In this document: positions 15,016 through 54,281 of the stretch, piece by piece
How positions within the stretch are numbered: position 1 is the stretch's first letter
Layout of the letters: each line of letters starts with the position of its first letter
NCBI GenBank assembly: GCA_902601705.1
Contig: CACKNV010000007.1
Span: 1-58,435 of the forward strand
Direction of reading: 5' to 3'
Length of the DNA stretch: 58,435 nucleotides
Source: an uncultured Pelagibacteraceae bacterium
GTDB lineage: Bacteria > Pseudomonadota > Alphaproteobacteria > Pelagibacterales > Pelagibacteraceae
Position numbers and translations under genes: made by a program
The notes under the pieces: model-generated
Databases searched by the model: none
What the model was told of the DNA's origin: nothing
Seen by the model: only the letters and a program-made list of their open reading frames with translations

Positions 15016-15171
15016 AACTCTTATCTAACCCCATCTGTCTATGTACCTGAGAGATTTAATCCTTCGGTGAGGCTTTCGCCTGCTTTCCAGAGTTATTACA
15101 GTAACGGTCCTTTTGCCTGAGAGTTTCCGGGGTGGTTGCTCCTTCGGCGCCTAAATGGTCTCTCCCGTTAC
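15016..15171 (-). ncRNA. Tandem glycine riboswitch
   Basis: On the minus strand two glycine aptamers lie head to tail before gcvT. Aptamer 1 is closed by a 7-bp stem (GTAACGG at 15101-15107 with its complement at 15165-15171) and contains GGGAGAGACC, GGCGCCGAAGGAGCAA and ACTCTCAGGCAAAAGGACC. Aptamer 2 is closed by AACTCT/AGAGTT (15089-15094 with 15016-15021) and contains GCGAAAGCCTCACCGAAGG and ATCTCTCAGGTAC. Conserved core words (CCGAAGG, CTCTCAGG) appear in both. The linker is 6 nt. Glycine riboswitches on gcvT are established, including in SAR11. No terminator lies between aptamer 2 and the start, so control is most likely on translation. Confidence 0.95.
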
Positions 15172-15218
15172 GTTGTGGACTCTCTTCTAAATAAAGTAAA
15201 AAGTCAAATGCAAATTAT

Positions 15219-51390: not shown

Positions 51391-52276
51391 TCTTAAAAAG
51401 GTAAATATCAAAACAGATACGACTATTCTATTAGCCACAGAGGCACAAAAAAGAGGTTATAAAATATATTACTTTGAACCAGAGAATTTAAGTTTTTTAA
51501 ATGGAAAAGTTATAGCTTCCTGCAAACATATTAAAATCCAAGATAATAAAAAGAAATTCTACTCAATAATAAAGACCATTAATTTTAACATAGAAAAATC
51601 AAAGGTTATACTAATCAGAAATGATCCGCCTTTTGATAATCGATACTTATATACAACGTTCTTACTCAACCATATTTCCAAAAAAGTTAAGATAATTAAT
51701 CATCCATTTGCAGTAAGGAATGTTTCGGAAAAGCTATTCTCTATTAATTTTATGAGGTATATGCCTCCTACCTTAATCAGTGAAAATCTTAATGAAATAA
51801 GAAGCTTCTATAAAAAACATAAAGCTGTAGTAGCTAAACCTATCAATGGTTTTAGTGGAAATAACGTTATTTTAATTAAGTCATTTAATGCTGGTAAAAT
51901 TAAAAAATTACTTAAATCTCATAATCATTTATTTTTTCAAAAGTTTTTACCCGGGGTTTCTAAAGGGGATAAAAGAGTTTTTATAATAAAAGGAAAAATT
52001 GAAGGCGCTATATCTAGAGTACCTAAAAAGGGAAGTATTTTATCTAACATGAGTAAAGGTGCTCACGCAAAGTTAACTAAACTTACAAAAAAAGAGATTA
52101 GAGCAAGTAAAGATATAGGAAAACTATTAGTCAAAAATAACATACATTTTGCTGGAATTGATTTTGTTCAAGAAAAATTAATTGGTGATATTAATGTTAC
52201 CAGCCCTACTGGTATGGCGGCTTATAAAGAATTATCCGGAATAAACCTTGCAAAATCCTTCTGGAATAATATTTAA
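51359..52276 (+). CDS. gshB: Glutathione synthetase
   Basis: 305 residues, with the prokaryotic ATP-grasp form: VILIRNDPPFDNRYLYTTFLL, VVAKPINGFSGNNVILI and GDINVTSPTG near the end (GshB motif). It adds glycine to gamma-glutamylcysteine. Together with gshA, cysE and grxC it makes a compact glutathione block. After its stop comes the promoter of the SAM-controlled metY transcript. Confidence 0.93.
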   Translation: MTKILAIQGSNLKKVNIKTDTTILLATEAQKRGYKIYYFEPENLSFLNGKVIASCKHIKIQDNKKKFYSIIKTINFNIEKSKVILIRNDPPFDNRYLYTTFLLNHISKKVKIINHPFAVRNVSEKLFSINFMRYMPPTLISENLNEIRSFYKKHKAVVAKPINGFSGNNVILIKSFNAGKIKKLLKSHNHLFFQKFLPGVSKGDKRVFIIKGKIEGAISRVPKKGSILSNMSKGAHAKLTKLTKKEIRASKDIGKLLVKNNIHFAGIDFVQEKLIGDINVTSPTGMAAYKELSGINLAKSFWNNI

Positions 52277-52283
52277 TTTCGTG

Positions 52284-52311
52284 TTGACAGAAAGATAAAA
52301 TTTTGTAATAA
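52284..52311 (+). promoter_or_regulatory. Sigma-70 promoter for metY
   Basis: TTGACA at 52284-52289, 16-nt spacer, TAATAA at 52306-52311. The predicted start, about 7 nt on, coincides with the first stem of the SAM-II aptamer at 52319. Confidence 0.8.
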
Positions 52312-52318
52312 AGCTTTT

Positions 52319-52368
52319 AGCGCCGAGTTAAGGCAACTTGCGGGCGCTTAATAAATCCAGCTAAAGCG
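52319..52368 (+). ncRNA. SAM-II riboswitch aptamer
   Basis: P1 stem AGCGCC (52319-52324) with GGCGCT (52343-52348). The internal CGAGTTAAGGCAACTTGC and the trailing TTAATAAATCCAGCTAAAGC follow the SAM-II consensus (pseudoknot partner AGCTAAA). SAM-II senses S-adenosylmethionine in alphaproteobacteria and SAR11. The 3' part GCTAAAGCG (52360-52368) is perfectly complementary to CGCTTTAGC in the terminator (52387-52395), making an antiterminator. Confidence 0.9.
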
Positions 52369-52381
52369 CACAAGTCTAACG

Positions 52382-52410
52382 ACCACCGCTTTAGCCGGTG
52401 GTTTTTTTTT
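52382..52410 (+). terminator. SAM-II-controlled terminator
   Basis: Stem ACCACCG (52382-52388) with CGGTGGT (52396-52402), loop of 7 nt, then T-run at 52402-52410. Its stem and loop bases 52387-52395 are those paired with the SAM-II 3' part in the antiterminated state. When SAM holds the aptamer, the terminator forms. Confidence 0.92.
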
Positions 52411-52439
52411 GGATTAATCTAAAACTAAACCGGGTATTT

Positions 52440-52484
52440 GAACCATATTGTACACCTGGCATATGCCGAAGTACTAAAAAGGAG
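52440..52484 (+). ncRNA. SAM-V riboswitch aptamer
   Basis: Behind the terminator: CATATTGTACACCTGGC, ATATGCCGAAGTACTAAAA and AGGAG. The stem GTAC (52450-52453) pairs with GTAC (52471-52474), enclosing a GGC/GCC hairpin, and CCT (52455-52457) can pair with AGG of the ribosome binding site (52480-52482). This matches SAM-V, known from SAR11 in tandem with SAM-II before metY; the ligand-bound form hides the Shine-Dalgarno sequence. Confidence 0.85.
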
Positions 52485-52543
52485 AAGATGAACAGAATTA
52501 ATTTCGTTCATTCTTCTCTAGAAAAACGGAGAAAAAATGAACG
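52481..52543 (+). promoter_or_regulatory. Twin RBS-start modules with a shared pairing arm
   Basis: Module A is GGAGAAGATGAAC (52481-52493), with start ATG 52488. Module B is GGAGAAAAAATGAACG (52528-52543), with ATG 52537. Between them lies the arm CGTTCATTCTTCTC (52505-52518). The arm can form 12 bp plus one bulge with module A, or about 8 bp plus a partly paired extension with module B. Only one can exist at a time, and either hides a start site. This is read from complementarity alone. Confidence 0.5.
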
Positions 52544-52655
52544 AGACATTAAGAGAAACAGTAAGGAGGAAAATCAATGGCTGATTTTAAACATCCGGAA
52601 ACTATTGGCTTACATGGTAGTGATTACAGAGCTGATCCTACTACAACAGCCGTAG
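52488..52655 (+). CDS. Possible leader ORF overlapping metY, 55 aa
   Basis: ATG at 52488 is directly after the SAM-V ribosome binding site (GGAG, 3-nt spacer). The frame encodes a basic 55-residue peptide starting MNRINFVHSSLEKRR and runs 79 nt into metY in another frame before stopping. No homology recognised. It may be a regulatory peptide or simply a translated leader; the close RBS gives modest support. Confidence 0.35.
   Translation: MNRINFVHSSLEKRRKNERDIKRNSKEENQWLILNIRKLLAYMVVITELILLQQP
52537..52584 (+). CDS. Possible 15-residue leader peptide coupled to metY
   Basis: ATG 52537 with an upstream GGAG opens MNETLRETVRRKING, ending at TGA 52582-52584, which overlaps the metY start (52577) by 8 nt. 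The metY ribosome binding site AAGGAGGA (52563-52570) lies inside this frame. Ribosomes ending here could restart at metY, so it may couple metY translation to the leader. Confidence 0.35.
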   Translation: MNETLRETVRRKING

Positions 52656-53869
52656 CAGTTCCAATTTACCAAACAACTTCTTACCAATTTAAAAATGCAG
52701 AACATGCTGCAAATTTATTTGGTTTAAAAGAATTTGGTAACATTTATACACGTATCATGAACCCGACAGTTGATGTTCTTGAAAAAAGAGTTGCAGCGCT
52801 TGAAGGCGGTGTAGCTGCATTAGCGGTAGGTTCAGGTCAAGCAGCATCAGCAATGTGTATTCAAAACTTAGCACAGGCTGGAGATAATATAGTTGCTTCA
52901 ACCGACTTATACGGAGGTACAGTAAACTTATTTAAAAATACTTTAAGACAGCAAGGTATTGAGGTTAGATTTGCAGATCCTGCAGATCCTAAAAACTTTG
53001 AAAAAGTTACTGACGATAAAACAAGAGCTTACTACGGTGAGTCTTGTCCAAATCCTTATCTTCGTGTGTTCCCAATAAAGGAAGTATCAGATATCGGTAG
53101 AAAAAAAGGTATTCCTTTAATTATCGATAACACAGCTTCACCAGTTATATGTAAACCTTTAGCTCATGGTGCTGCAATCGTAATGCACTCTTTGACTAAA
53201 TATATTGGTGGTCATGGAACTTCAATAGGTGGAATTATTGTTGATGGTGGAAACTTTGACTGGATAAAAGATAGAAAAAGACAACCATTAATAAATGAAC
53301 CTGATCAAAGTTATGGTGGTGCAATATGGGCAGATGCAGTTCCTCAATTAACAGGAGCTAACATTCCTTTTGTAATCAGAGCGAGAGTGGTTTTATTGAG
53401 AGACTTAGGTGCTCCTTTAAGTCCATTCAATGCTTTCCAAATTATTCAAGGTTTGGAAACTGTGGCTCTTAGAATGAAACAACATTGCAGTAATGCAGAA
53501 AAAGTAGTTTCGTTCTTAGAAACACAAAAGAAAGTTAAGAATGTGATCTACCCTACTAACCACCAAGGTGAGATTAAGGAAAGAGCTAAAAAATACATGC
53601 AAGGCGGATATGGTTCTTTAGTTGGTATGGATGTAGGCACAAAAGAAGCTGGTGCTAAATTCATTGATAACTTAAAGATGTTATATCACGTTGCTAATAT
53701 TGGTGATGCTAGAAGTTTAGCAATTCATCCAGCTACTACAACGCACAGTCAGTTAGATGATGCAGCGTTAGCAGCAGCAGGAGTAACGCCAGGTTATGTA
53801 AGACTGTCAATTGGTATCGAACATCCAGATGATATCATTGCAGACATTAAACAAGCTTTAGCTGCTTAA
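52577..53869 (+). CDS. metY: O-acetylhomoserine sulfhydrylase
   Basis: 430 residues. Motifs of the Cys/Met metabolism PLP family: PETIGLHGSDYRADPTT at the N-terminus, RIMNPTVDVLEKRVAALEGG, AVGSGQAASAM, LIIDNTASPVI and the PLP-lysine region VMHSLTKYIGGHGTSIGG; the C-terminus holds SLAIHPATTTHSQL. It makes homocysteine from O-acetylhomoserine and sulfide (or a reduced sulfur source). Strong ribosome binding site AAGGAGGA, 6 nt from ATG. Transcription is set by SAM-II and translation probably by SAM-V and its leader structures. Confidence 0.95.
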   Translation: MADFKHPETIGLHGSDYRADPTTTAVAVPIYQTTSYQFKNAEHAANLFGLKEFGNIYTRIMNPTVDVLEKRVAALEGGVAALAVGSGQAASAMCIQNLAQAGDNIVASTDLYGGTVNLFKNTLRQQGIEVRFADPADPKNFEKVTDDKTRAYYGESCPNPYLRVFPIKEVSDIGRKKGIPLIIDNTASPVICKPLAHGAAIVMHSLTKYIGGHGTSIGGIIVDGGNFDWIKDRKRQPLINEPDQSYGGAIWADAVPQLTGANIPFVIRARVVLLRDLGAPLSPFNAFQIIQGLETVALRMKQHCSNAEKVVSFLETQKKVKNVIYPTNHQGEIKERAKKYMQGGYGSLVGMDVGTKEAGAKFIDNLKMLYHVANIGDARSLAIHPATTTHSQLDDAALAAAGVTPGYVRLSIGIEHPDDIIADIKQALAA

Positions 53870-53912: not shown

Positions 53913-54281
53913 ATGATCAAACAAATCAAGTCATCAGAAATAAAAAAATTTATAGACAGCAATCCAAATACTGTTTTACTAGATGTGCGAACAGAAGAAG
54001 AATGGAATACAGTTGGTAGGCCCGATACAAAAGATCTTGGTATTGAATCCTACTTTATTACAATTTCGCAAGACTCAAGTTTTTTAGAAAATGTTAAAAA
54101 AAATATAGATAAAAAAAAACAAGTACTGGTAATGTGTGCTGCGGGTGGAAGATCAATTGTTGCTGCTAATCTTTTAGCAAATGAAGGTTATAATACTTTA
54201 AATGTATCTGATGGCTTTAGTGGAAATGGTCAAGATCCTGGCTGGAAAAACTTTGAACTACCTTCTATTATAGATAACTGA
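53913..54281 (+). CDS. Rhodanese-like domain protein
   Basis: 122 residues, a single rhodanese domain. Motifs: NTVLLDVRTEEEWNTVGRPD at the N-terminus and the active loop VLVMCAAGGRSIVAANLLANEGY, with Cys at MCAAGGRS. It transfers sulfane sulfur. It follows metY by 43 bp and fits a sulfur context. Its coding end overlaps the converging lipoprotein gene by 24 nt. Confidence 0.9.
   Translation: MIKQIKSSEIKKFIDSNPNTVLLDVRTEEEWNTVGRPDTKDLGIESYFITISQDSSFLENVKKNIDKKKQVLVMCAAGGRSIVAANLLANEGYNTLNVSDGFSGNGQDPGWKNFELPSIIDN

Follow-up and report, generated by a model that had tools for sequence, protein, structure and literature searches.

The leader of metY in the window (the whole stretch of 58,435 nucleotides analysed here, which we take to be SAR11-type DNA) raises the question of why near-identical ribosome-binding sites, each with an ATG, occur twice below one SAM-V riboswitch, and which of them serves a gene. 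A preliminary description held that an arm lying between the two modules can pair with either of them, and that SAM may choose which leader start is open and so set reinitiation at metY. We put the probability at about 0.68 that the array forms a three-strand expression platform through which SAM-V controls translation indirectly, and in which the GGAG of module 1 (GGAG1) is a decoy copy of the gene's Shine-Dalgarno (SD) sequence. The conserved arm switch probably lets SAM turn methionine genes off.

The features of the locus are given in Table 1. They follow one another in the order SAM-II-like stretch, terminator, SAM-V, module 1, arm, module 2, ORF2, and metY, and upstream of the array are encoded members of the glutamate-cysteine ligase and the glutathione synthetase family. 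The nearest relatives of the window's metY are in uncultured Pelagibacteraceae records and in HIMB058. A consensus scan of positions 52200-52700 returned the terminator, together with an overlapping shorter match, as the sole terminator-like site; it lies between the SAM-II-like stretch and SAM-V, as in a tandem arrangement. By its covariance score the SAM-V stretch is a member of RF01826, and SAM binding is predicted. The placement of P2a in the table is one that we infer, following PMC6061858 (this and the other papers cited here were available as excerpts). The coordinates and letters previously given for both modules and the arm proved right when the sequence was read directly: the near copy in module 2, GGAGAAAAAATGAACG, spans 52528-52543, and the arm letters CGTTCATTCTTCTC occupy 52505-52518, with the pairing stretch extending to 52519. 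The metY ATG is 96 nt downstream of GGAG1. A gene for a small rhodanese-domain protein (53913-54278) directly follows metY, and elsewhere the window contains a glycine riboswitch (15095-15177, minus strand; 65 bits, cut-off 32).

Table 1. Features of the metY leader and gene in the window.
Feature	Coordinates	Strand	Basis and remarks
Degenerate SAM-II (SAM_alpha) aptamer-like stretch	52310..52385	+	RF00521, 20.1 bits (sub-threshold; cut-off 36)
Intrinsic terminator 3' of the SAM-II stretch	52381..52410	+	8-pair stem and T run; consensus scan
SAM-V riboswitch aptamer	52423..52487	+	RF01826, 69.9 bits (cut-off 41); GGAG1 in its 3' end
CC, proposed 5' strand of P2a, opposite GG 52481-52482	52443..52444	+	15:53 pair counts
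Module 1 (S1)	52481..52493	+	GGAGAAGATGAAC; GGAG1 and ATGAAC; putative decoy ribosome-binding site, 5' strand of hairpin A
Shared arm	52506..52519	+	Predicted partner of module 1 in hairpin A and of module 2 in hairpin B
Module 2 (S2)	52528..52539	+	GGAG2 52528-52531, ATG2 52537-52539; putative real ribosome-binding site
ORF2, 15 codons	52537..52584	+	MNETLRETVRRKING; stop overlaps metY start
SD of metY itself, AAGGAGG	52563..52569	+	Sequence
metY, O-acetylhomoserine sulfhydrylase	52577..53869	+	TIGR01326, 567 bits (cut-off 495); PF01053

Alternative folds were computed with pseudoknots outside the model, and SAM binding was mimicked by blocking four bases. Pairing of the arm with either module, as had been claimed, is borne out by these predictions. 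Hairpin A, formed by module 1 and the arm, has 13 pairs with one bulge, three further inner pairs, and an energy at 37 C of -16.9 kcal/mol (z -3.4); two of 200 shuffles of the 65 bases from 52481 fold as well. Hairpin B, formed by module 2 and the arm, has 15 pairs that cover GGAG2 and ATG2 (-15.9 kcal/mol, z -3.3), and one of 200 shuffles was as good for the same stretch without its first four bases, GGAG. The earlier estimate for the second pairing (about 8 bp plus a weak extension) was too low. At 20 C, the minimum energies of the two folds are -24.9 and -24.9, and the predicted fold of the window switches from hairpin A to hairpin B when GGAG1 is blocked or omitted. Folding thus predicts two exclusive helices, one of which closes an SD, as in an anti-SD/anti-anti-SD pair; in the window the SD that is closed is that of ORF2.

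The four bases of GGAG1 are common to hairpin A and the 3' end of SAM-V. The three-way exclusion of SAM-V, hairpin A, and hairpin B suggested in the preliminary description therefore stands, in that the strands are shared and the structures mutually exclusive. It is also physically plausible, because GGAG1 lies within the SAM-V 3' end: in the excerpts of PMC6061858, SAM binding was no longer detectable once this end had been shortened by 2 nt (metY) or 3 nt (bhmT), and P2a is proposed as a helix of nucleotides 14-15 with part of the SD. Given the effect of these truncations, hairpin A and SAM binding should compete. Two further roles were considered for the repeat and rejected: hairpin A as a terminator, since the scan gives the SAM-II terminator only, and the inverted repeat as an operator or protein site, since stem sequences vary among lineages with the pairing kept.

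In the proposed mechanism, GGAG1 and the bases following it would, without SAM, pair with the arm once the arm is transcribed, and the resulting hairpin A would leave GGAG2 free. With SAM, the aptamer would hold the first two Gs of GGAG1 in P2a and the arm would be released; hairpin B would then close GGAG2 and ATG2, and translation would be off. This translational switch would act downstream of the SAM-II terminator checkpoint. In leaders of bhmT and of methionine-synthase-like genes, GGAG2 would directly serve the gene for the enzyme. In the window it would serve ORF2, and metY would be translated by coupling, given the overlap of the ORF2 stop with the metY start.

SAM-V was found in 131 of 169 genomes of the window's genus; in a sample of 398 genomes from the order (completeness >= 80%), 206 had it. 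Across the class, 12 of 385 genomes had a match at E <= 0.001; five passed the cut-off, three of them in the window's family, and the two outside the family had best scores of 43.1 and 43.0 bits. The 312 loci collected were reduced to distinct leaders, which comprised 101 platform leaders, 115 simple leaders (an SD followed by the start of metY or mmuM), and 2 others. The platform leaders precede ORF2-metY (67), bhmT (31), or a methionine-synthase-like gene (3), and all 101 of these SAR11 leaders share one plan: SAM-V with GGAG at its end, a stem, an arm of CUCC type, a loop mostly of 8 nt, a second GGAG (GAGG once), and an ATG. The loop is exactly 8 nt long in 74 leaders, and the spacing from GGAG2 to ATG is 5 nt in 80. 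The regular expression used for leaders demanded a GGAG or GAGG preceded at 5-12 nt by a pyrimidine-rich tetramer and followed by an ATG, and did not demand pairing between module 1 and the arm. The short gap between arm and GGAG2 is thus built into the search and is weak evidence for hairpin B. All leaders not classed as simple met the expression except two, one of which (L276) is a simple metY leader on reading. The other, L247, has a SAM-II/SAM-V array, hairpin A, and the arm, without a second GGAG or a recognised bhmT start, and is possibly a decayed platform.

Platforms occur in the window's genus, in that of HTCC1062, and in two more genera with one example each (bhmT in L287; methionine-synthase-like in L286). 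The bhmT leader of the HTCC1062-matched genome (L245) is among the 101; in it, GAGG replaces GGAG2. A strict platform pattern, which misses the window itself (its arm ends in CTCT), was found in 46 of 398 genomes of the family and 6 of 399 of the HTCC1062 genus. Gene labels were assigned from short protein motifs, with a profile check on one protein each. The L264 protein scored well over the cut-off of Pfam S-methyl_trans and the L286 protein just over that of Meth_synt_2, but both fell below the NCBIfam cut-offs, so the names bhmT and methionine synthase are given by similarity. The methionine-synthase-like gene behind the platform SAM-V in L239, L240, and L286 is a distant, cobalamin-independent type. 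ORF2 (RETxRxxING type) stands before metY either directly or after bhmT (L077, L084-L087, L141); among close relatives, some have bhmT between the platform and ORF2 and others do not.

Covariation was assessed by exchanging strands between eight clusters of leaders (75% identity) with 20,000 permutations. Module 1 and the arm covary: cognate strands pair at -24.3 kcal/mol versus -16.5 kcal/mol for non-cognate strands, one permutation was as good, and the cognate partner was best in six of the eight clusters. With GGAG/CUCC removed, four permutations were as good, and the cognate partner was best in three clusters. For hairpin B, covariation over the eight clusters was not significant in any of three cuts (4031, 1198, and 11176 permutations as good), and the control of module 1 against module 2 was flat (9057). 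Over 19 leaders, the fit of module 2 to the arm was only moderately better than that of 69 ordinary ribosome-binding sites, and mixed (median percentile 0.25; ranks 0 to 59). Conservation and covariation of the arm in relatives, proposed earlier as a check, are therefore found in part: the arm is kept and covaries with module 1, but not significantly with module 2.

Within metY leaders (66, with L002 set aside), the stem cells are paired in 857 of 858 cases for hairpin A, 395 of 396 for the core of hairpin B, and 394 of 396 for its start-codon part; changes in the stems are mostly to G-U. The arms end in CTCC in 59 of these leaders; in the remaining seven, including the window's, one base is changed. 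The apical loop, by contrast, occurs in 26 variants, with indels as well as sequence changes. A C-rich tetramer (CCCT, CCTC, CTCC, TCCC, or CCCC, picked after the loops were seen) is present in the apical loop of 24 of 28 distinct bhmT and methionine-synthase-like leaders (including L006, L007, and L011), versus 5.3 expected by shuffling, and in 5 of the 26 metY loops.

The aptamer itself differs between platform and simple leaders. In our own numbering, fitted to the excerpts of PMC6061858, the putative pair 15:53 is C-G in all 84 distinct platform leaders scored; in the 109 simple leaders it is U-A (84) or U-G (25) and never C-G. The remaining one of the 194 aptamers, that of L247, also has C-G. 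Aptamers with unusual letters were left out of these counts, and the expression gave none in L280, L289, and L292 and other stretches in several loci. Within the HTCC1062-matched genome, the pair is C-G in the leader of bhmT and U-A in that of metY. In effect, GGAG in the platform would lie one base further inside the aptamer, where P2a could take in both Gs; this would be expected if SAM has to compete with hairpin A for them. The tandem arrangement alone does not explain the difference, since the terminator signature upstream of SAM-V, found in 81 of 81 platforms and 0 of 23 mmuM leaders, is also present in 46 of 86 simple metY leaders. The link between 15:53 and the platform may stem from shared descent, with few origins, and the 84 cases are not independent events.

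With GGAG1 blocked, predicted accessibility of GGAG2 was below 0.02 in 99 of the 101 leaders, versus 31 of 303 with a shuffled middle; a drop of more than 0.3 was seen in 64 of 101 leaders (13 of 31 for bhmT alone) versus 33 of 303. In the folds, capture of GGAG1 is thus predicted to close both sites, and release of GGAG1 allows the second to open. At equilibrium, many bhmT leaders are not mainly in the open state: mean GGAG2 accessibility with GGAG1 free was 0.52 for ORF2-metY, 0.35 for bhmT, and 0.23 for methionine-synthase-like leaders, falling to 0.22 for metY leaders in a longer transcript, and many leaders are predicted to be largely closed even then. The ON state may therefore need kinetics. 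In nascent RNA ending before GGAG2, the pairing probability of GGAG1 with the arm exceeded 0.5 in 101 of 101 leaders. Hairpin A would thus be favoured first, because GGAG1 is predicted to pair with the arm before GGAG2 is transcribed, and this order may decide the outcome in the cell. Like the kinetic order, the direction of the SAM effect and the coupling through ORF2 are what we infer from these predictions.

Hairpin A might also be a conserved leader hairpin for stability or insulation, with hairpin B merely a by-product that arises because an anti-SD arm is next to an SD. Significant covariation in hairpin A only is consistent with this, and the arm-GGAG2 gap, being demanded by the search, says little for hairpin B; yet all non-simple leaders but two met the expression, the loop is mostly of one length, arm pairing to the start-codon part of module 2 is almost fully kept, and pair 15:53 changes along with the platform, all of which make a by-product improbable. 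A standby role for GGAG1 is likewise unlikely, if somewhat less so: GGAG1 would recruit the 30S subunit, translation would start at the downstream AUG, SAM-V would hide GGAG1, and the hairpin would provide spacing, as proposed for Sinorhizobium meliloti metA. In that leader, according to the excerpts of PMC9373788, the riboswitch SD is needed though the start, AUG2, is 74 nt downstream. In the SAR11 platforms, GGAG1 lies 55-76 nt before ATG2 among the leaders listed. Against standby, ATG2 has a GGAG or GAGG of its own, mostly 5 nt away, and hairpin A covaries to bury GGAG1, the opposite of what a landing site needs.

The least probable reading is the one first put forward, in which SAM picks between translation of ORF1 (the frame of module 1) and ORF2, and reinitiation sets metY output. 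ORF1 ends at the ATGA of ATG2 in 45 of 67 metY leaders; in the other 22 it stops after 2-4 codons or runs on, and in the window it continues for 55 codons. The stretch from GGAG1 to ATG2 is open in the ORF2 frame in 15 of 67, eight of which have ATG1 in frame, and this speaks against the decoy platform. A conserved frame from the first start, as expected for a leader peptide, was not found in the 67 metY and 31 bhmT leaders. No ATG occurs 3-12 nt past GGAG1 in 11 of 31 bhmT leaders; two of these have GTG or TTG and nine have none of the three. GGAG-AAG-ATG is retained in 65 of 66 metY leaders, and its 3-nt spacer is a short one for initiation. Neither the ORF1 frame nor the bhmT leaders that have no ATG after GGAG1 support a choice by SAM between the two starts. 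The likeness of the two modules would be better explained by both fitting one arm, start codon included.

The effect on metY through the leader, also part of the preliminary description, fared better in one respect. The distance from the ORF2 ATG to that of metY is 40 nt (65 leaders) or 37 nt (2), i.e., 1 mod 3 in 67 of 67, and because this frame is kept throughout, ORF2-metY translational coupling is plausible. The SD of metY itself, on the other hand, is predicted to be open in both states (mean accessibility over the 67 leaders 0.69 with GGAG1 free and 0.63 with it blocked), so control of metY needs coupling through ORF2 or is weak. For the enzyme genes, the stretch from GGAG1 to the gene start is interrupted by a stop in the gene's frame in 29 of 31 bhmT leaders (not L255 and L287) and in all three methionine-synthase-like leaders; because of it, GGAG1 cannot serve those genes by an in-frame start. 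In these leaders the aptamer GGAG does not behave as the gene's own SD, which direct occlusion would require; in direct-occlusion SAM-V, the SD is typically within ten nucleotides of the start codon, according to the excerpts of PMC2704228.

With SAM-V direct occlusion (RF01826; excerpts of PMC6061858), the proposed decoy platform shares the aptamer, the GGAG at its 3' end, capture in P2a by SAM, and an OFF state with SAM. The published 3'-end SD belongs to the downstream gene, whereas here it would be a competitor strand and the gene would use a second SD downstream. The tandem leader of Candidatus Pelagibacter ubique bhmT (PMC9481103, PMC11508383) has SAM-II, a terminator, and SAM-V in series; the window carries such an array, with a degenerate SAM-II-like stretch, before metY. 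In their available excerpts, PMC11508383 labels an SD within the SAM-V domain and PMC9481103 has SAM-V controlling access to the ribosome-binding site, and neither mentions the arm or a second SD. The S. meliloti metA SAM-II leader, as excerpted from PMC9373788, is similar in having an SD and AUG1 in the riboswitch and the real start downstream, but no shared arm is described there, the only SD-like sequences at AUG2 are GAG and GGA, and the two AUGs are separated by a terminator. We found no description of an arm or second SD below SAM-V in the excerpts of PMC6061858, PMC2704228, PMC5069961, PMC9481103, PMC11508383, and PMC9373788.

The new element would be the use by SAM-V of anti-SD exchange with a decoy ribosome-binding site; the type of mechanism itself is known from other riboswitches. 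Three-strand anti-SD/anti-anti-SD exchange occurs in translational riboswitches such as TPP thiM and cobalamin btuB. The SAM-V platform resembles these in using a three-strand exchange to control an SD, but here the strand in competition closely duplicates an entire ribosome-binding site, and the aptamer is SAM-V.

We consider it reasonably likely that the SD assigned by published work in tandem leaders, including that of HTCC1062 bhmT, is a decoy. It would be a copy of the true ribosome-binding site that a compensating change of P2a from U-A to C-G has moved one base further into the aptamer, and SAM would act indirectly, through the shared arm. With stems that differ, this one platform would have been adapted to bhmT, to a methionine-synthase-like gene, and to ORF2-metY. 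Were this so, a single riboswitch class would have two translational outputs, direct occlusion and decoy exchange, distinguished by a single aptamer base pair. This would explain why near-identical ribosome-binding sites come twice, and would change which site counts as the bhmT SD in the SAR11 model strain. It would also offer those who study mechanism a naturally occurring RNA switch from some of the ocean's most abundant cells, with two states that are nearly isoenergetic in the window.
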